A DNA stretch of 64,000 nucleotides, taken from the NCBI GenBank assembly GCA_919901855.1, contig CAKKQC010000021.1, forward strand, positions 1 to 64,000. The letters are read 5' to 3'. A program made the translations under genes and the position numbers. The first letter of the stretch is position 1; every line of letters starts with the position of its first letter. This DNA is from a bacterium (GTDB lineage: Bacteria; Oederibacteriota; CAKKQC01). Under the pieces are notes generated by a model. That model was not told the origin of the DNA. It did not search any database and was given only the letters and a program-made list of their open reading frames with translations. Of the stretch, positions 11,556 to 19,668 are shown piece by piece.

Positions 11556-11680
11556 GGAAGATCAGGGACGGTCTTTGGATCATTGGATTCTCGGCTGAGG
11601 CTGGGGTTCGAGGACTGCTTCGCACGCGCAGGGCATGCCGGAATGCTCCGTAAGAGGCCAATGATCCCAAGACCGTCCCT
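11556..11680. repeat. Palindromic element family B, copy 1 (internally shorter)
   Basis: Bases 11556-11660 are identical to 12913-13017 (105 bp). The left arm starts at 11564 (AGGGACGG) and a right arm (11658-11680, ending GACCGTCCCT) is its imperfect inverse. Compared with copy 2, this copy lacks the inner segment before the right arm and has a changed base in it (TCCC instead of TCCA). It sits between hicBA and mntA. Confidence 0.9.
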
Positions 11681-11718
11681 CCCCCTACGCGGGAGCCGAT
11701 GCGATAGAGGTACTATGT

Positions 11719-12072
11719 ATGCACACGCGCGTGACAGGGGGACCATCGGTGGTTGACGACTCGTTGATCCGTGAGGCGGCGGAGCTCCTCGCCAGGAGTG
11801 CTCCGCCGGGTTCACAGGTGATACTGTTCGGCTCGCGCGCCCGTGGTACCGCCGGGCCGAAGAGCGACATTGACTACCTCGTGGTCGAGCCGGAAGTTCG
11901 GGATCGGGTGGAAGAGATGGTCCGTTTGCGTGCCGTCTTGCAGCCGCTTGCGCGCCGTCATCTGGTTCCCGTGGACCTCGTGGTCGTGAGCCGGGAAAAA
12001 TACGCCTACTGGAACGATGTGCCCAACAACCTCTATCACGAGGCGAAGACGAGCGGGCAGGTCTATGAGTAA
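11719..12072 (+). CDS. mntA: MNT-type minimal nucleotidyltransferase (MntA-like)
   Basis: This 117-residue protein has the nucleotidyltransferase core GSRARGTAGPKSDIDYLVV, the GS-x-DxD metal-binding signature of minimal nucleotidyltransferases. Members usually pair with a HEPN protein as a toxin-antitoxin module in which the MNT protein nucleotidylates the HEPN toxin. A GTG at 11749 (preceded by AGGGGGA at 11735-11741) would give a 107-residue protein that still contains the whole motif and may be the real start. The next frame, starting at 12065 and overlapping by 8 nt, looks like the N-terminus of the expected HEPN partner but is broken, so this antitoxin may be orphaned. Confidence 0.82.
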   Translation: MHTRVTGGPSVVDDSLIREAAELLARSAPPGSQVILFGSRARGTAGPKSDIDYLVVEPEVRDRVEEMVRLRAVLQPLARRHLVPVDLVVVSREKYAYWNDVPNNLYHEAKTSGQVYE

Positions 12073-12150
12073 GTGGCCTGGGCGGGGCAGGCTGCTGCTT
12101 GAGAAGGCACGGGGGGGTCAGCGAGCACTCGCGAGTTTGACGAAGGACGC
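12065..12150 (+). pseudogene. Truncated HEPN-like partner of mntA (N-terminal remnant)
   Basis: The frame starting at the ATG at 12065 overlaps the mntA stop by 8 nt, as in intact MNT-HEPN operons. It reads MSKWPGRGRLLLEKARGG and continues for about ten residues in a way that resembles the first helix of HEPN proteins. It then changes into unrelated sequence near 12150, with a stop at 12221-12223. The downstream sequence belongs, in another frame, to a FlgD-Ig-like tail. The HEPN RNase motif (R-x4-6-H) is missing. I infer a deletion or recombination junction near 12150. Confidence 0.45.
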
Positions 12151-12350
12151 GAGCGCCATCATTCCTTGTCACCATCCAGTCCTCCGGTCCGTTGTCGCTC
12201 AGGTGGTTCGTGTGGGAAGATAAGCCCGGGACGGACTTGTACGAGTGGGACGGCAGGAATAGAGCCGGGAGGCGCGTGGCCCCAGGAGTCTACTGGTGGG
12301 CTGTGGAGAACAAGGGGACCAAACAGCGAGGAAAGCTGGTGATTGAATGA
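12141..12350 (+). pseudogene. Orphan C-terminal fragment of a secreted protein with a FlgD-Ig/T9SS-like tail
   Basis: A frame open from 12141 to the TGA at 12348 has no start codon of its own. It encodes a typical FlgD-Ig (PF13860-like) terminal domain: WFVWEDKPG, then YEWDGRNRAGRRVAPGVYWW, then GTKQRGKLVIE and stop. Such tails normally end long secreted proteins. Only this tail remains, fused out of frame to the HEPN-like fragment. It is too short for ordinary gene calling and is best read as a relic. Confidence 0.6.
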
Positions 12351-12390
12351 GTCATCGGGGCCTCAAGCTCGTCGCGGTGTCGGCGTAGCC

Positions 12391-12660
12391 ATGGCTGAGC
12401 CGGTTGACCGGTTTGTAGTGACGCCACATGCGCTCTTCGAGATGCGGCGACGCGGCATTCGTGAGGACGAGCTGGGGGAGGTCCTGGCGGCTCCCGGTCA
12501 GCGCTGGACGGTGCGTGCGGGACGGGATGTGCTGCAATCCAGGGTCGCCACGGCGGGAAAGCCGTATCTGCTTCGCGTGTTCGTGGACACCGACTGCCGC
12601 CCGCCGGAAGTCGTGACGGCGTACCGAACAGGTAAGATAGAGAAGTACTGGAGGCCCTAA
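12391..12660 (+). CDS. DUF4258 domain protein (probable toxin-like partner)
   Basis: This 89-residue protein fits the DUF4258 pattern. It has FVVTPHALFEMRRRGI near the start, GRDVLQSRV in the middle, and the typical end VVTAYRTGKIEKYWRP. DUF4258 genes often sit directly upstream of a small DUF2283 gene, as here, and the pair is considered toxin-antitoxin-like by association. The ATG at 12391 is chosen; the frame is open further upstream to 12343 but that part overlaps the FlgD-Ig fragment. No clear Shine-Dalgarno is present. Confidence 0.75.
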   Translation: MAEPVDRFVVTPHALFEMRRRGIREDELGEVLAAPGQRWTVRAGRDVLQSRVATAGKPYLLRVFVDTDCRPPEVVTAYRTGKIEKYWRP

Positions 12661-12662
12661 CG

Positions 12663-12863
12663 ATGAAAGTCACGTACGATCAGCGCACTGACACCCTCAG
12701 CGTGATTCTGATGGACAACGTGCTCGTGGCGGAAAGCGACGAGGACAAGCAGGGCGTGATCCTGGACTACGACGCCGGCGGCAACCTCGTGTCCGTGGAA
12801 GTCATGGACGCCTCGAAGCGCGTCACGGACGCGCGAAAGATCGAATACCAGACCACGGCGTGA
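12663..12863 (+). CDS. DUF2283 domain protein
   Basis: This 66-residue protein is a clear DUF2283 member: MKVTYDQRTDTLSVIL, then DKQGVILDYDAGGNLVSVEVMDAS. These small proteins commonly follow DUF4258 genes and are assumed to be the antitoxin side of the pair. Its ATG lies two bases after the DUF4258 stop, so the two genes are certainly co-transcribed. The gene is followed immediately by repeat element B copy 2. Confidence 0.82.
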   Translation: MKVTYDQRTDTLSVILMDNVLVAESDEDKQGVILDYDAGGNLVSVEVMDASKRVTDARKIEYQTTA

Positions 12864-12912: not shown

Positions 12913-13098
12913 GGAAGATCAGGGACGGTCTTTGGATCATTGGATTCTCGGCTGAGGCTGGGGTTCGAGGACTGCTTCGCACGCGCAGGGCATGCCGGAA
13001 TGCTCCGTAAGAGGCCATTGCGGTAGAATCGGTGGGTTGGGGACGGCCCCGGGATCAGTCGGTCCCGGGAAGAATCCAATGATCCAAAGACCGTCCCT
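12913..13098. repeat. Palindromic element family B, copy 2 (full-length)
   Basis: The outer arms at 12921-12948 and 13071-13098 form a perfect 28-bp inverted repeat separated by 122 nt. The first 105 bp (12913-13017) are identical to copy 1 at 11556. The middle also holds a smaller GC-rich stem around GGGACGGCCCC and GGTCCCGGG. No transposase frame is present inside, so it is a non-autonomous element. It ends 11 bp before tRNA-Leu. Confidence 0.92.
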
Positions 13099-13109
13099 CC
13101 CCTTAACGC

Positions 13110-13192
13110 GCGCGGGTGGTGGAATGGCAGACACGCTAGGCTCAGGACCTAGTGGGCGCAAGCTCGTGGGAGTTCAAATCTCCCCCCGCGCA
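13110..13192 (+). tRNA. tRNA-Leu (anticodon CAG)
   Basis: The acceptor arms GCGCGGG and CCCGCGC pair fully. The D arm begins TGGTGGAATGGCAGAC, the anticodon loop is CTCAGGA within the stem CTAGG/CCTAG, a long class-II variable arm follows, and the T arm is GGGAG-TTCAAAT-CTCCC. The discriminator is A and CCA is not encoded. A short T-run (CTTTTT) follows at 13196-13201. Confidence 0.96.
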
Positions 13193-13239
13193 CGTTCTTT
13201 TTCGTCCGGAAACCGTTGCCGGGGGACCGTTCCCGCCAT

Positions 13240-13321: not shown

Positions 13322-14041
13322 ATGCACAAGTCGATGGGCGTTGTTATGGTCCTGTTGGCGGGCGCCGTGATGGCCGGATGCGGCGGCGCGCAGCCCCAGG
13401 GCGTCGGGAGCGCGGCGACCGCCGCCCCGACGACGGACAAGGTGATCTCGACGATCCCGGCGGTGGCGCCGGACTGGATCGTCAAGGAGCCGGCCGAGAA
13501 GGACGGGTTCCTGTGGTTCGTCGGGCTCTCCGACAAGCAGGCGACCCAGCAGGGCGCGCGCGACGGCGCGGAGAAGAACGCGCGGGCGCGGGTCGTGGCG
13601 TATCTCGGGAGCGCGTTCTCGGAGAAGCTCCAGAAGCTCACGCTGTCCGCGGGGCTGTCGAGCGACGTCGTGGACGCCACGGTCGCGCGGCGCGGCTTCG
13701 AGGAGATCATGACCGCCGGCGTGGCGAGCAAGGTCCGCGTGACGGAGTGGTACATCGAGCGCTGGGCCCGGCCGAGCGGCGAGGAGTACTGGATGGTCTA
13801 CGGGCTGGCCAACGTGCCCACGAAGGCGATCGACGAGGCCTACGCGTCGATGATGACCGGCGAGGCGGCGAAGGCGAAGGAACGCATGGACGCGGCCAAG
13901 GACGCGAAGATGCGGACCCAGTACCAGACCGCGATGAGCATGTTCGAGGCGGCCAAGGCGGCCGGCTTCGGCTCGGCGGGTCCGGAAGGGGCGGCCCCGG
14001 CGCCGGCTCCCGGCGGGACCACACCCGTTCCGGCTCATTGA
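13322..14041 (+). CDS. LPP20-family lipoprotein
   Basis: This 239-residue protein is a predicted lipoprotein: MHKSMGVVMVLLAGAVMAGC has the lipobox with the modified cysteine near residue 20. The mature part matches the LPP20/FlgP-type fold by WIVKEPAEKDGFLWFVGLSDKQATQQGARDGAEKNARARV-like sequence and a later WYIERW. It is paralogous to the N-terminal half of the next protein, which has VIFVGLSTKDAAQQGARDAAEKHARSRV in the same place. The ATG at 13322 is chosen because GGGAGG lies a few bases upstream; a longer frame from 13283 adds only non-signal residues. It ends in an Ala/Pro-rich tail. It is the first gene of a four-gene envelope operon. The role is unknown; LPP20 proteins are outer-membrane or periplasmic lipoproteins. 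Confidence 0.85.
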   Translation: MHKSMGVVMVLLAGAVMAGCGGAQPQGVGSAATAAPTTDKVISTIPAVAPDWIVKEPAEKDGFLWFVGLSDKQATQQGARDGAEKNARARVVAYLGSAFSEKLQKLTLSAGLSSDVVDATVARRGFEEIMTAGVASKVRVTEWYIERWARPSGEEYWMVYGLANVPTKAIDEAYASMMTGEAAKAKERMDAAKDAKMRTQYQTAMSMFEAAKAAGFGSAGPEGAAPAPAPGGTTPVPAH

Positions 14042-14048
14042 GAAGAAG

Positions 14049-16247
14049 TTGAACTCAGGTAGTCCGGTGAGGGCCGCGTCGATCGCGCTCGTGGCGACCG
14101 CGGCCCTCGCCGTTTCGTGCGGGGGCGGTGCCGTGCGACCGGACGTCCCAGCTACCGCGGCATTCTCCAGCGCGGCGCTGGTCCGGACGATGCCCGAGGG
14201 GGGCGCGCCGGCCTGGACCGTGAAGGAGACCGAGGTCCAGAACGGCCGGGTGATTTTCGTGGGGTTGTCCACCAAGGACGCCGCCCAGCAAGGCGCCAGG
14301 GACGCGGCCGAGAAACACGCGCGGTCCCGGGTCGCCGCCTACGTGGGTTCCCAGATCTCGGAGCGCTGGCAGAAGCTCTCGGCTTCCTACGGACTGGCGA
14401 GCGGAACGGTCGATCCGACCGTCGCCCAGCGGGGGATGCAGGAGATCGCGACCAGCGCGCTGGTCTCCAAGTTCAAGATCGACGAGTGGTACATCGAGAT
14501 GTGGGGCGTCAAGGCGACGGGCGCCGTGGAATATTACATCGTCTACGGCCGCGGATCGATCGCGGAGGCCGACGTGGACCGGGCCATCGTCGCGGCGGCC
14601 GAGAAGGCGAAGGCGCAGGCCGCGGAGTGGGAGAAGCGAAATACCGAGCTGCAGGCCGCGCTCGCGGAGGCGCAGGCGCTCGTCAAGGACGCGACCGAGG
14701 ACAAGCGGAAGGGCTTCCCCGACCGCGCGGAGCGGAAGTTCCAGGACGCCCTGACGAAACTGGCCGCGGCCAGGGGTGCCGCGAACGCCGCCGGGATGGC
14801 GGACCGGGTCGGCCAGATCGGCCAGATCGACCAGCTCACGAAGGCGGTCGAGGAGCTCCGGGGCGCGCAGGCGGGCCCGATGGGGCTCGCGAGCGCGGTC
14901 GAGGCGCTGGCCGAGGCCGTCGGGGCCGGGCCGGTCACGGTCGCGGTCGCGTCCGCCACGTGGCAGGACACGACCTTCGGCTCGCCTGTCGCCTCCTGGC
15001 TCGTCCAGCTCACGGAGGAAGAGCTCATGCGCCGCGCCCCGCCGTTCCGCGTCATTCCCAACAAGGTCTTCACGGCCCAGATCCGGAGCGCGCAGCTCTC
15101 GCTCGAGGCGGTCCGGACGAGCGCCGAGGCGGCGGGCAAGCTCCTGCCGAAGCCGGACGCCCTGCTCACGATCAGCTACTGGCAGAAAGCGGACGGGCTC
15201 CAGGTGTCGTTCCAGATCGTGAAGGCGGGCGAGGGGACGGGGATCGGCGCCGCTACGGCGATGATGCCCGCCGCCGACCTGCCGGCCGGCATCGAGGTCC
15301 AGCCGACGAACCGGGAGACCGCCGAGGGCGTGATGGAAGCCTTCGGCCGCGCGGCGGGCACGGGCACGCCGGCGCCCGGCGCCCTGGCGGTCAAGACGTG
15401 GCCGGACCGGGGCGAGTCCGCGACCTACCGCGAGGGCGACGAGATCGTGTTCAACGTGCAGGCGACCCGCGACTGCTACGTCTACCTCTTCCACGCCGAC
15501 GCCGAGGGGAACGTGGACCTCCTGTTCCCGAACAAGTTCCAGGCCGCCAACCAGATCAAGGGTGGCGCCCTGTTCACGCTTCCGTGGGCGGGGGCGACGT
15601 TCAAGTTCCGGGCGCGGCCCCCGTTCGGCAGCGAGGTCGTGGAGGCGGTCGCGACCACGGAGCCCGTCGCCGAGCTCCAGGCGGCGGTCGCCAAAGGTGC
15701 CTTCCGGTCGCTCGGGACCGCGGGGAGCGAGGTCTTTCGCGGGGCGATGGCAGGAATCGGGCGGCTCCCGGATACCTCCCGCGCCGCGAGCCGTTGCACG
15801 CTCACGATCGTGCCGGGCACGGCGGCGGCGACCGGCGGGCCCCGGCCGGTGCTGAACCTGGCCGTCGCGAACCTGGCGCCCCAGAACGTGGGGGCGGACG
15901 ACGCGGCGGGGGTGTCGGACATGCTGCGGGCCGAAGTCGCCAAGACGAAGGCGTTCCGCCTGCTCGAGCGCGCGCGGATGGAGCAGGTGATGGCGGAGCA
16001 GGCGCTCCAGCAGACGGGGGCGACCGATTCGGAGCGGGCGGTTCAGTTGGGCAAGCTCCTGAACGTTCAGCGCATGGTCGTCGGGAGTTTTGGGCGGCTC
16101 GGGGGAGTTTACGTAGTGACGATTCAGGCGGTGGACGTCGAGAGCGGCGAAGTCGTGCACGGCGACAGCCTGCGCGGCCGGTCGATGGACGAGGTGCTGA
16201 GCGGGCTGGCGGCGATGGCGACGCGGCTCGCGCGGGAAGCTCGCTGA
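14049..16247 (+). CDS. Multidomain lipoprotein: LPP20 + DUF4384 + CsgG-like
   Basis: This 732-residue predicted lipoprotein (lipobox LAVSC after a short hydrophobic stretch) has three recognisable parts. Residues ~45-190 repeat the LPP20 fold of the preceding gene and are followed by a helical Ala/Glu-rich region to ~280. Residues ~445-560 are a DUF4384 domain (DRGESATYREGDEIVFNVQA, then CYVYLFHADAEGNVDLLFPN). Residues ~615-732 resemble the CsgG/FlgO nucleotide-binding-like fold (LRAEVAKTKAFRLLERARME, then LGKLLNVQRMVVGSF). The start is TTG at 14049 or GTG at 14067; both retain the signal sequence. It lies 7 nt after the previous gene and 11 nt before the WD40-caspase. A scaffold or secretion-linked envelope role is inferred only. 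Confidence 0.8.
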   Translation: MNSGSPVRAASIALVATAALAVSCGGGAVRPDVPATAAFSSAALVRTMPEGGAPAWTVKETEVQNGRVIFVGLSTKDAAQQGARDAAEKHARSRVAAYVGSQISERWQKLSASYGLASGTVDPTVAQRGMQEIATSALVSKFKIDEWYIEMWGVKATGAVEYYIVYGRGSIAEADVDRAIVAAAEKAKAQAAEWEKRNTELQAALAEAQALVKDATEDKRKGFPDRAERKFQDALTKLAAARGAANAAGMADRVGQIGQIDQLTKAVEELRGAQAGPMGLASAVEALAEAVGAGPVTVAVASATWQDTTFGSPVASWLVQLTEEELMRRAPPFRVIPNKVFTAQIRSAQLSLEAVRTSAEAAGKLLPKPDALLTISYWQKADGLQVSFQIVKAGEGTGIGAATAMMPAADLPAGIEVQPTNRETAEGVMEAFGRAAGTGTPAPGALAVKTWPDRGESATYREGDEIVFNVQATRDCYVYLFHADAEGNVDLLFPNKFQAANQIKGGALFTLPWAGATFKFRARPPFGSEVVEAVATTEPVAELQAAVAKGAFRSLGTAGSEVFRGAMAGIGRLPDTSRAASRCTLTIVPGTAAATGGPRPVLNLAVANLAPQNVGADDAAGVSDMLRAEVAKTKAFRLLERARMEQVMAEQALQQTGATDSERAVQLGKLLNVQRMVVGSFGRLGGVYVVTIQAVDVESGEVVHGDSLRGRSMDEVLSGLAAMATRLAREAR

Positions 16248-16258
16248 CAGGGAGGCGA

Positions 16259-18604
16259 ATGATGGGAATCGGGACGCGGTGGACGGCGATTGCGGCGGTG
16301 GCGTCGGTGGTGGCGTCCAGGCCGGCTTTGGCGGAGGAGTTCGGGCTCGCCGCGACCCTGCGCGGGCACAGCGGCGAGGTGCACGCGGTCGCGTTCAGTC
16401 CCGACGGGTTGTGGCTCGCCACCGGCGGGTACGACAAGACGATCCGGATCTGGAAGGTCGGCGGCGGATACGAGCGCACGCTCGAGGGCCACGACAACAC
16501 GGTCACCGCGGTGGCCTTCAGCCCGGTGAAGAAGCTCCTGGCGTCGGCGAGCGGCGACGGCACCGTCAGGCTCTGGAAGCTTCCCGAGGGGACGGTCGAG
16601 CACGTGCTCAAGGGCCATGACGGAGTCGTGCTCGCGGTGGCGTTCAGTCCCGACGGCAAGCTGGTCGCGTCCGGCGGGCACGACCAGACCGTCCGGCTCT
16701 GGAATGCGGACGATGGATCGCTCCTGGCGACGCTCAAGGGCCACCGGCTCGACGTCCGGTGCGTGGCGTTCAGCCCCGTGAAGAAGGTCCTCGCCTCGGC
16801 CAGCGAGGACCGCTCGGTGAAAATCTGGAGCGTGCCCGGGGGCGCGGAACTGCGCACACTCGAGGGCCACACGGGGTCCGTCCTGTCTGTCGCGTTCAGC
16901 CCGGACGGCAAGCTGCTCGCGTCCGGAAGCTACGACAAGACGGTCCGGTTGTGGGACCCCGAGTCCGGAGCTTCGCTCAAGGTGATGTCGGGGCACACGG
17001 ACTGGGTCACGGGCGTGGCCTTCAGTCCGAACAGCCGGTTCCTCGCGTCCTCGGGTGAGGACAAGACGGTCAAGATCTGGAGCATGCCGGACGGCGGACT
17101 GGCCGAGAGCCTGGCGGGGCACACGGGTGACGTCAGCGGCGTGGCGTTCAACCCGACGAAGCGCTACCTCGCGTCAGTCAGCTTCGACGGGACGGTCCGG
17201 GTGTGGCGGATGGGTGAGCCGTCGGCTCCTTCATCGGCTCCCGCGACGACCGCTTCCACGCCCGCGCCGGTCTCGACACCGGCCCCGGCCGCGGCTCCGG
17301 CTCCTTCCCGGCCGGCCGCCGCCACGCCCGCCCCGGCATCGACTCCGAGGCCGAGGCCGGCGGCGCCCGCCGACCGCAATCCCCCCGCCATCGACATCAC
17401 GGCTCCGCTGCCCGGCGGCGCGGTGCCGGGCGACGAGGTCGTGGTCTCGGGGCTCGTCCAGGACGACCGTTCCGTGGCCTGGGTGGAGGTGAACGGCAAG
17501 CGTCTGGGCAAGAAGCGCGGAATCTCGGTCGAGAAGAAGACCAAGGCGCAGATGCCCTTCGAGGAGACGATCAAGCTCGCGCCCGGCGAGACCAAGATCA
17601 CGGTCCGGGCGGCGGACGAGGCCGGGAACGTGTCCGAGTACGCGATTCCGGTCGTCCGGGGGGCTGTCACCACGGCGGCGGCGCCCGCGGCGGCGAACGC
17701 GGCGGTGGCGCCGGCGGCCCGTCCCGGGCTCATGGATCGCCTGCGGGGCCGGCTGAGCGGGAACAAGGTGCCCAAGGCGGGGACGGGCACGACAGCGTCG
17801 GGGCCGGCGGCGCCCGCGGGCGCGCGCCCGGATCTCTACGTGCTCTCGATCGGGGTGTCGAAGTACAAGACCGGGGGCATGAGCCTCCAGTTCGCGGACC
17901 ACGACGCCACGAAGCTAGCCGAGGTCTTCAAGGGCCAGGAGGGCAAGCTCTACGGCCGTGTGTTCACCAAAGTGCTCGTGAACGAGGGGGTCACGCGGGA
18001 CACGATCCTGGAGGCGGTCGTCAAGTTCCTGGGCCAGGCCTCGGATTTCGACGTGGCCATGGTCTTCGTCGCGGGGCATGGCGTCCAGGACCGCGTGACC
18101 GGGAGCTACTACTACCTTCCGTACGACGCGACGCCGGAGAACCTCATGTCCCACGGCTTGCGGTGGAGCGACTTCGACGAGTCGGTGACCAAGCTGCGGA
18201 CCCACGTCTCCAAGGTCGTGCTCTTCGTCGACACGTGCCACGCGGGCTCGATGACCGTCGCGATGCGCGGCGCCGAGGCGGGAGAGGACCTGGCCAGGAC
18301 GCTGAAGGAGGCCGAGGGGACGTTCATCGTCTCGGCGAGCAAGGCGGGCGAGACTTCCGAGGAGCGGGACGAGTGGAGGCTGCCGGGCGAGACGAGGGGC
18401 CACGGCGCGTTCACGCTCTCGCTTCTGAAGGGCCTGCTCGGCGGGGCCGACGTCGATCGCAGCGGCAGCGTCAGCCTCGACGAGCTCTCGTACTACGTCG
18501 GCAAGGAAGTGCCGCGGATGACGGGTGGGAACCAGCACCCGTATAAGCGCAGTGCCGGTACGGACATGCCGATGGCGGTGACACCCGGCACGGTGGGGCA
18601 GTGA
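16259..18604 (+). CDS. Exported WD40 beta-propeller / caspase-like (peptidase C14) fusion
   Basis: A signal peptide (first ~25 residues, ending ASRPALAEE) is followed by exactly seven WD40 repeats of 42 residues each (about 29-322), enough for one closed propeller. Each has a GH, an AFSP-type core and a WD-like end (IWKV, LWKL, LWNA, IWSV, LWDP, IWSM, VWRM). A Pro/Ala linker (~325-385) and a small Ig-like domain (ITAPLPGGAVPGDEVVVSG) lead to a caspase-like domain from ~520. Its catalytic pair is H607 in VAGHGVQD and C660 in VDTCHAG. An EF-hand-like DVDRSGSVSLDEL follows near 745. Start codons at 16259 and 16262 are equivalent (ATGATG after GGGAGG). The frame is open far upstream, but that part only shadows the lipoprotein gene. 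It overlaps the next gene by GTGA. Confidence 0.88.
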   Translation: MMGIGTRWTAIAAVASVVASRPALAEEFGLAATLRGHSGEVHAVAFSPDGLWLATGGYDKTIRIWKVGGGYERTLEGHDNTVTAVAFSPVKKLLASASGDGTVRLWKLPEGTVEHVLKGHDGVVLAVAFSPDGKLVASGGHDQTVRLWNADDGSLLATLKGHRLDVRCVAFSPVKKVLASASEDRSVKIWSVPGGAELRTLEGHTGSVLSVAFSPDGKLLASGSYDKTVRLWDPESGASLKVMSGHTDWVTGVAFSPNSRFLASSGEDKTVKIWSMPDGGLAESLAGHTGDVSGVAFNPTKRYLASVSFDGTVRVWRMGEPSAPSSAPATTASTPAPVSTPAPAAAPAPSRPAAATPAPASTPRPRPAAPADRNPPAIDITAPLPGGAVPGDEVVVSGLVQDDRSVAWVEVNGKRLGKKRGISVEKKTKAQMPFEETIKLAPGETKITVRAADEAGNVSEYAIPVVRGAVTTAAAPAAANAAVAPAARPGLMDRLRGRLSGNKVPKAGTGTTASGPAAPAGARPDLYVLSIGVSKYKTGGMSLQFADHDATKLAEVFKGQEGKLYGRVFTKVLVNEGVTRDTILEAVVKFLGQASDFDVAMVFVAGHGVQDRVTGSYYYLPYDATPENLMSHGLRWSDFDESVTKLRTHVSKVVLFVDTCHAGSMTVAMRGAEAGEDLARTLKEAEGTFIVSASKAGETSEERDEWRLPGETRGHGAFTLSLLKGLLGGADVDRSGSVSLDELSYYVGKEVPRMTGGNQHPYKRSAGTDMPMAVTPGTVGQ

Positions 18605-19668
18605 TCCACCTCCTCGGGCCGGCGCTCGCCGCGGGTCTGGCGCTGGCGGCGCCGCCGGCGGCGATGGCTGCCGACGCGGCCGCCGTGAAGGCGGCCGGGA
18701 AATCCCTGTCGGCCCAGCTCGTGAAACTCGCGGGGTCGCGCAAGCTCACGGTCGCGGTCGAGGACTTCACCGTCGGCGAGTCGGGCTTCGGCGGCGCGTC
18801 GGCCCGCAGGCTCCGGAATGCCGTGGAGCTCGGGCTGAAGGCGAATCCCCGGTTCAAGGTGGTCACGTATGCGGCCCTGCGGGCGGGCGGGAACAAGGGG
18901 TACGTGGTCCGGGGACGCGTCCTGAACGGTCGCGCGGAAGCGTGGCTGGACCAGCCGGGGGGGCATCCCGTGCGGCCGGAGCGGGCGGTCTTCGGGATGT
19001 CGGCATCGGCCGAGCTGGCCGCGATCCGGATCCGGCACACGCGCGGCATCGATGTGGAAGAAGTGACCGCGGCGGTTTCTGCGCCGGCCGACGTCCCAGC
19101 CGCCACAGAGCCCGCCGTCTCGACTGCACCGGCTTCCGAGGAGCCGGTGGCGGCAGCCGTGGTGGTCGCGGACCAGCCCGAGACGACATCCGACCTCAAG
19201 GTCGAGTTGTGGACCGATCGCGGGGAGGCCGCGACCTACCAGGGCGGCGAGGAAATCGTCGTCCACGTGCGCGCGAACCGGGACTGCACGCTCCGGCTCG
19301 TCTACGTCGACGCCGAGGGGAAGCTCAACACGATCTTCCCGAACGACTGGTCGTCGCCTGGAGCCGGGCGCATCAGGGCGGGTGTGATCTACACGATTCC
19401 GTCCTCGACCGACGACTTCAAGTTCACGGTGACCCCGCCGTTCGGGAACGAGGCGATCAAGGCGCTCGCGACCACCGGGACGCCCGGCGAGGCCCTGCCC
19501 GCGCTCGAGGGCCAGGGGACCGCGGCGGTCACCCGCGGCCTGCGCCGCACCAGGGGCATCATGCTCGAGGCCGCGCCGGCCACGGAGCCGTCCTCGGGTC
19601 TCGAGACCGCGCCCGCCTACGCCGAATCAGCCGCCACGGTGACCACGGTCGACCAGCCGGGCGACTGA
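18601..19668 (+). CDS. Secreted DUF4384 protein
   Basis: This 355-residue protein has a GTG start overlapping the caspase stop (GTGA) and a signal peptide ending near AAPPAAMAAD. The first ~150 residues resemble a CsgG/TolB-N-like region (KLTVAVEDFTVGESGFGG, then RLRNAVELGLKANPRFKVV). An Ala/Pro/Thr linker leads to a DUF4384 domain at ~205-300 (DRGEAATYQGGEEIVVHVRANRDC, then LRLVYVDAEGKLNTIFPND). The domain is a close paralogue of the one in the 14049 lipoprotein, down to the PPFGNEAIKALATT versus PPFGSEVVEAVATT endings. It closes the four-gene envelope operon; xseA follows after 20 nt. Confidence 0.8.
   Translation: MIHLLGPALAAGLALAAPPAAMAADAAAVKAAGKSLSAQLVKLAGSRKLTVAVEDFTVGESGFGGASARRLRNAVELGLKANPRFKVVTYAALRAGGNKGYVVRGRVLNGRAEAWLDQPGGHPVRPERAVFGMSASAELAAIRIRHTRGIDVEEVTAAVSAPADVPAATEPAVSTAPASEEPVAAAVVVADQPETTSDLKVELWTDRGEAATYQGGEEIVVHVRANRDCTLRLVYVDAEGKLNTIFPNDWSSPGAGRIRAGVIYTIPSSTDDFKFTVTPPFGNEAIKALATTGTPGEALPALEGQGTAAVTRGLRRTRGIMLEAAPATEPSSGLETAPAYAESAATVTTVDQPGD

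Follow-up and report, generated by a model that had tools for sequence, protein, structure and literature searches.

A four-gene operon combining an exported WD40-Ig-caspase with LPP20-like and DUF4384 proteins: a candidate envelope-tethered protease system

The locus described here raises the question of what an exported caspase does in an operon with predicted envelope lipoproteins. To our knowledge, most of what caspases do in bacteria is obscure, and they are usually discussed in connection with death of the cell from within the cytoplasm. If their pairing with envelope lipoproteins is conserved, it would offer a testable alternative, in which caspases act as regulated proteases of the cell envelope, and would provide a concrete partner for DUF4384, a domain that five papers of the literature searched name.

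Organisation and predicted envelope setting of the operon

The four genes lie on the + strand at positions 13322-19668 of the window (the whole stretch of 64,000 nucleotides analysed) and are spaced by 7, 11 and -4 nt, the last value corresponding to a GTGA overlap between genes 3 and 4, so that the tight packing given in a preliminary description of this DNA is borne out. The operon is flanked upstream by a tRNA-Leu gene (13110-13193), and xseA starts 20 nt past the end of gene 4, with no terminator-like site found in a search of the + strand between the two; the neighbouring genes are presumably xseA, xseB, ispA and dxs, as named from their sequences. Gene 1 (13322..14041, 239 aa) starts with an ATG preceded by the Shine-Dalgarno sequence AGGGAGG, gene 2 (14049..16247, 732 aa) with a TTG at 14049 (a GTG at 14067 being equally possible), gene 3 (16259..18604, 781 aa) with an ATG backed by a good Shine-Dalgarno sequence, also AGGGAGG, and gene 4 (18601..19668, 355 aa) with a GTG at 18601.

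Neither gene 1 nor gene 2 matches the Pfam LPP20 family (PF02169), and both are therefore classed as LPP20-like by fold only. The LPP20 label that they had been given thus fails at the level of Pfam and holds at that of predicted structure: the LPP20-like domain of the gene 1 model (aa 48-179; 13463..13858) fits Helicobacter pylori Lpp20 (5OK8) with a Z of 12.7 and an rmsd of 1.9 over 106 residues, the runner-up structures (the Tip-alpha group) being well below this at a Z of about 8. This match was obtained by realigning Foldseek candidates, Foldseek by itself giving no significant match, and the model, which was built from four sequences, is of middling confidence (mean pLDDT 64, core 55-88). 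Profile comparison of genes 1 and 2 with LPP20 proteins gives a weak match (83%) confined to the N-terminal part. The N-terminal LPP20-like domain of gene 2 (approximately 14199..14588) is a paralogue of gene 1 (50% identity over 145 residues) and is followed by a middle alpha/beta domain, a DUF4384 domain (PF14326; 15423..15665; E 2e-24 to 2.7e-25) and a CsgG-like domain. Gene 4 consists of an N-terminal region and a second DUF4384 domain (19234..19476; E 7e-22 to 2.1e-22), and is 44% identical to the DUF4384 region of gene 2 over 121 residues. With scores of 85.7 bits in gene 2 and 77.8 bits in gene 4, both DUF4384 domains are far above the cut-off of 27. The paralogous LPP20 and DUF4384 pairs reported earlier are therefore real, and gene 2 can be read as gene 1 extended by a gene 4-like part and by CsgG. 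The structure predicted for the middle-DUF4384-CsgG part of gene 2 is unusable (pLDDT 44), and no fold is therefore claimed for DUF4384; a search of PDB sequences with gene 2 returned no match.

The CsgG-like match of gene 2 (PF03783; 15906..16088; E 5.7e-10) is partial, covering profile positions 38-97 of 210, and a curli secretion channel of the CsgG type was rejected for this reason. A phage origin was rejected too, as genes 1, 2 and 4 gave no match in a PHROGs search. This genome shows a strong expansion of the CsgG-like domain at the C-terminus of gene 2, with about a dozen further copies of 38-52% identity on contigs C40, C12, C34, C19, C18, C33, C2, C38, C73 and others. DUF4384 occurs only twice in the genome, both times inside the operon.

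All four proteins begin with a signal-peptide-like hydrophobic stretch in a simple hydrophobicity test, and a simple pattern test finds lipobox-like motifs in genes 1 (MAGC) and 2 (AVSC) only. The neighbouring genes taken as cytoplasmic controls have neither such a stretch nor a lipobox-like cysteine. Since Omp85 is encoded in this genome, an outer membrane is probably present. Genes 1 and 2 encode predicted lipoproteins of the LPP20 (SHS2-like) fold, which probably reside in the outer membrane. The export and envelope setting proposed for the caspase thus agrees with these tests. Not borne out is the accompanying statement that WD40-caspases are usually cytoplasmic: a signal-peptide-like stretch was found in 32 of 37 caspase frames in DUF4384 loci, as against 137 of 292 other long frames; the 37 come from the phylum of G080 (a Desulfobulbaceae genome) and from genomes of named relatives, and frames were called mechanically. 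A 2012 survey had already noted N-terminal helices in metacaspases that are likely signal peptides (PMC3501461).

The caspase and its predicted specificity

Gene 3 carries seven WD40 stretches (16346..17218; Pfam E 2e-93), an Ig-like domain (Glucodextran_B; 17384..17656; E 7.7e-8) and a Peptidase_C14 caspase domain (17843..18553; E about 2e-18 to 3.1e-18) that scores 67.5 bits against a curated cut-off of 21.4. Both catalytic residues named in the preliminary description are in place, namely His607 in AGHG (18077..18079) and Cys660 in DTCH (18236..18238), as judged from sequence and alignment, and two residues N-terminal of the latter lies D658, an S1-type Asp. The His/Cys dyad is kept in 38 of 39 DUF4384-linked caspases in the alignment, a count that may be flattered because the profile used to find caspases favours intact domains; the dyad is intact in 84% of metacaspases overall (PMC3501461). 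In 60 of 60 caspases, both Asp residues that align with the S1 pocket are kept, their positions being matched by motif context and not by structure. Enzymes of type C14B cleave after basic residues, and their S1 residues have been named (PMC6426788). The best reading of the gene 3 caspase is that of a predicted Arg/Lys-specific protease of this type. A conserved Thr-Arg-Gly following DUF4384 was considered as a caspase site and dropped, as a single DUF4384 subfamily has it and it shows no tie to nearby caspases.

The likeness to bacterial metacaspases and orthocaspases (C14B) lies in the C14 domain, the His/Cys dyad and the acidic S1 pocket, and WD40 is the commonest extra domain of these proteins (PMC3501461, PMC8283722). 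However, described WD40 metacaspases include NACHT-WD40 fusions, and gene 3 differs in its export signal, its Ig-like domain and its operon lipoproteins, and in that NACHT was seen neither among the 25 best of 60 Pfam families nor in the parts scanned separately. Gene 3 scores 75.5 bits with the EACC1-associated caspase family (NCBIfam NF047832), below the curated cut-off of 140, and a search of PDB sequences with the caspase domain gave no match. PADLOC returned one generic caspase match and one WD40-type match, both on gene 3 and without any complete known system, and an anti-phage defence system was rejected on these grounds.

Recurrence of the caspase with its partners

The exact four-gene order, when sought in related genomes, is found in this genome only; what recurs instead are pairs and modules. 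In the sister genome G001, which belongs to the same family and is 83% complete, genes 1, 3 and 4 have no match and gene 2 matches only through its widespread CsgG-like part. Few of 79 genomes (44 of them from the same phylum) have a match to the caspase part of gene 3. An unfused version exists in G034, of the same phylum, where LPP20, DUF4384, caspase and WD40 lie on separate genes: the caspases of this cluster are three exported TIG-caspases, its lipoproteins are one with DUF4384 and two with LPP20 (Pfam E 6e-4 and 3e-3, both below the cut-off), and its WD40 proteins are an exported one and a WD40-kinase. A caspase-domain scan of 84,980 named species genomes yielded ten loci. In Cloacimonadota (locus L124), an exported WD40-Ig-caspase, whose caspase is 56% identical to that of gene 3, is followed by a protein with LPP20 (E 0.014), FlgT_N (0.0012) and DUF4384 (0.032) in the order of gene 2, each below the cut-off. 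Fusions occur as well, as in the L127 lipoprotein, in which LPP20 (1e-9, above the cut-off) is joined to a caspase (C14 2e-19), and in L079, a paralogue in this genome, in which two CsgG-like domains, missed by Pfam but recognised from their similarity to gene 2, are fused to a caspase that shares 49% identity with gene 3. CsgG-like proteins adjoin the caspase in L126, a WD40-caspase lies beside a CsgG-DUF4384 protein in a Treponema genome, and a plasmid of Deinococcus sp. NW-56 carries a DUF4384-caspase and a WD40-caspase in one gene run.

In a tree of 60 caspase domains, gene 3 falls into a clade of six (support 97/99) together with L079, L124, L125, L126 and L127, and in five of the six, LPP20 or CsgG-like modules are fused to the caspase or lie next to it. 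The caspase of L125, from G080, has a lipoprotein N-terminal domain that in profile comparison matches neither gene 4 nor the middle or CsgG region of gene 2. The clade spans several phyla, and gene 3 is nearer to the Cloacimonadota and Desulfobulbaceae caspases than to those of its own phylum (about 28% for G034), which suggests that its caspase may have been acquired by horizontal transfer.

The strength of the pairing was quantified in an even sample of the phylum of G080, whose 395 genomes contain 131 DUF4384 places and 210 caspases. A caspase lies within 10 kb of DUF4384 at no fewer than 53 of the 131 places (at least 53, as the count rests on 150 of the 210 caspases), whereas 1.7 are expected from each genome's own caspase number, an enrichment of about 30-fold in which fused DUF4384-caspase proteins count as near. 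At the level of genomes, this holds for at least 34 of the 62 that have both, against about 1.7 expected; tandem clusters swell the count of places and not that of genomes, and both counts treat the genomes as unrelated to one another. Among 40 DUF4384 places read in detail, most of them spread down the list and three picked as clusters, a caspase was present in the stretch read at 19. A large number of DUF4384 proteins lack a neighbouring caspase. The partnership of the caspase with DUF4384 and LPP20 is real in evolution. The functional linkage proposed earlier with DUF4384 and LPP20/CsgG lipoproteins is upheld by this co-occurrence far above chance and by the pairwise fusions, and where homologues that never co-occur were looked for, the opposite was found, the caspase/DUF4384 pairing being recurrent.

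Parts of this partnership are already known, namely exported bacterial caspases since 2012 and DUF4384-caspase fusions since 2019 and 2021 (PMC6426788, PMC8283722). The latter, from cyanobacteria and alphaproteobacteria, include 23 of 473 cyanobacterial orthocaspases (PMC8283722) and a trypsin-pseudo-caspase-DUF4384 clade (PMC6426788); they link the same two domains, which here, in contrast, are split between different exported proteins and accompanied by LPP20 and CsgG-like modules. The 2012 survey described exported metacaspases as well as metacaspase operons linked to the surface or to sigma factors (PMC3501461), the sigma-metacaspase operons being those of myxobacteria and Fibrobacter. Loci of this kind in G029, G002 and G072 share with the operon an exported caspase whose neighbour matches DUF4384 weakly or below the cut-off, but a sigma/anti-sigma-like pair takes the place of the lipoproteins. 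A literature search, with subscription journals largely outside its reach, found neither a description of the joint LPP20/CsgG/DUF4384 caspase module nor LPP20 together with the term "caspase family protein".

Several further loci were seen along the way. An exported caspase adjoins a protein of 255-287 aa in L111 (1448-4985), L112 (5508-8900), L113 (5693-9142) and L118 (3733-6788); this protein has a weak DUF4384 match in L111, L112 and L118, and a sigma-factor-like gene adjoins in L111, L112 and L113. The cluster at L200 (4903-11399, contig C19 of G176) has seven matches to DUF4384, and several of its proteins are caspase-DUF4384 fusions, with either domain coming first. The other two caspases encoded in this genome (L084, 5554-7344, and L085, 5833-7509) are caspase-FGE-sulfatases, a known architecture unlike the operon type.

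Proposed mechanism and competing explanations

We consider it somewhat probable that the operon encodes an envelope-tethered regulatory protease system with the caspase at its centre. What has been computed comprises the domains, the export-type N-termini, the preservation of the catalytic and S1 residues, and the repeated occurrence of these modules as pairs and fusions across phyla; an outer-membrane location, a physical complex, active proteolysis, a trigger and a substrate are what we infer. In this model, the lipoproteins of genes 1 and 2 would probably sit in the outer membrane, gene 2 adding its CsgG-like and DUF4384 modules, and together with the exported DUF4384 protein of gene 4 they would act as tether and as sensor or regulator. 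Gene 3 would act as effector, perhaps docking on these partners or on a substrate through its WD40 propeller and Ig domain; its caspase, with a His/Cys dyad and an acidic S1 pocket, would cleave envelope proteins after Arg or Lys upon a signal. For the docking of a protease-type protein on this lipoprotein fold, a useful precedent is PflC, which sits beneath the FlgP ring of the flagellar motor in Campylobacter (PMC12222027). Because parts of the module set recur as neighbours or fusions in several phyla, it looks like a widespread system. There is an about even chance that exported caspases and LPP20/CsgG-like/DUF4384 lipoproteins form an outer-membrane-tethered signalling or quality-control complex, with fusions and orders that vary among Desulfobacterota, Cloacimonadota, Spirochaetota, Deinococcota and the phylum of this genome.

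Two other explanations are each unlikely to a similar degree. The operon might encode a device for killing or self-destruction in the periplasm, in which the exported caspase would degrade envelope proteins and lyse the cell or its neighbours, with the lipoproteins serving as immunity or restraint factors. Surface or fratricidal roles have been proposed for exported metacaspases (PMC3501461), and the caspases look active by their dyad and S1 Asp and are patchily distributed; nevertheless, clusters with several caspase copies have no obvious immunity gene, PADLOC sees generic matches in place of a complete phage-defence system, and the close housekeeping gene xseA, with no terminator found before it, argues against such a device. 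It is similarly improbable that the assembly is mainly a scaffold, in which the LPP20/CsgG proteins would build an outer-membrane structure and the caspase fold would be a docking part. The caspase would then resemble the protease-like PflC in its place under the FlgP ring (PMC12222027); LPP20, FlgP and FlgT share an SHS2-like fold, and DUF4384 partners also match FlgO and FlgT_M. However, the caspases almost always retain the dyad and the S1 Asp, a helix of the gene 1 model occupies the position of the ring-forming beta-hairpin insert of FlgP (PMC12222027), and no flagellar genes are seen beside the operon. The link to a caspase also sets the operon apart from the LPP20/FlgP/FlgT family. That four unrelated envelope genes came by chance to lie on one strand upstream of xseA, as their exact order being found here only and not in the sister genome might suggest, is strongly disfavoured and very improbable in view of the enrichment in another phylum, the caspase fusions with LPP20, CsgG-like and DUF4384 modules, and the Cloacimonadota WD40-Ig-caspase/LPP20-DUF4384 pair.

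The region upstream of the operon contains a MITE-like element of roughly 190 bp (12913-13105) with terminal inverted repeats of about 28 bp (AGGGACGGTCTTTGGATCATTGG...) and a second copy (11556-11687), the two having 108 nt in common at 99%; short matches to the ends of this element occur on several other contigs of the genome. Between the two copies (11719-12863) lie small genes for a nucleotidyltransferase (PF01909), a DUF4258-like protein and a DUF2283 protein, kinds that are frequent in toxin-antitoxin-like pairs.
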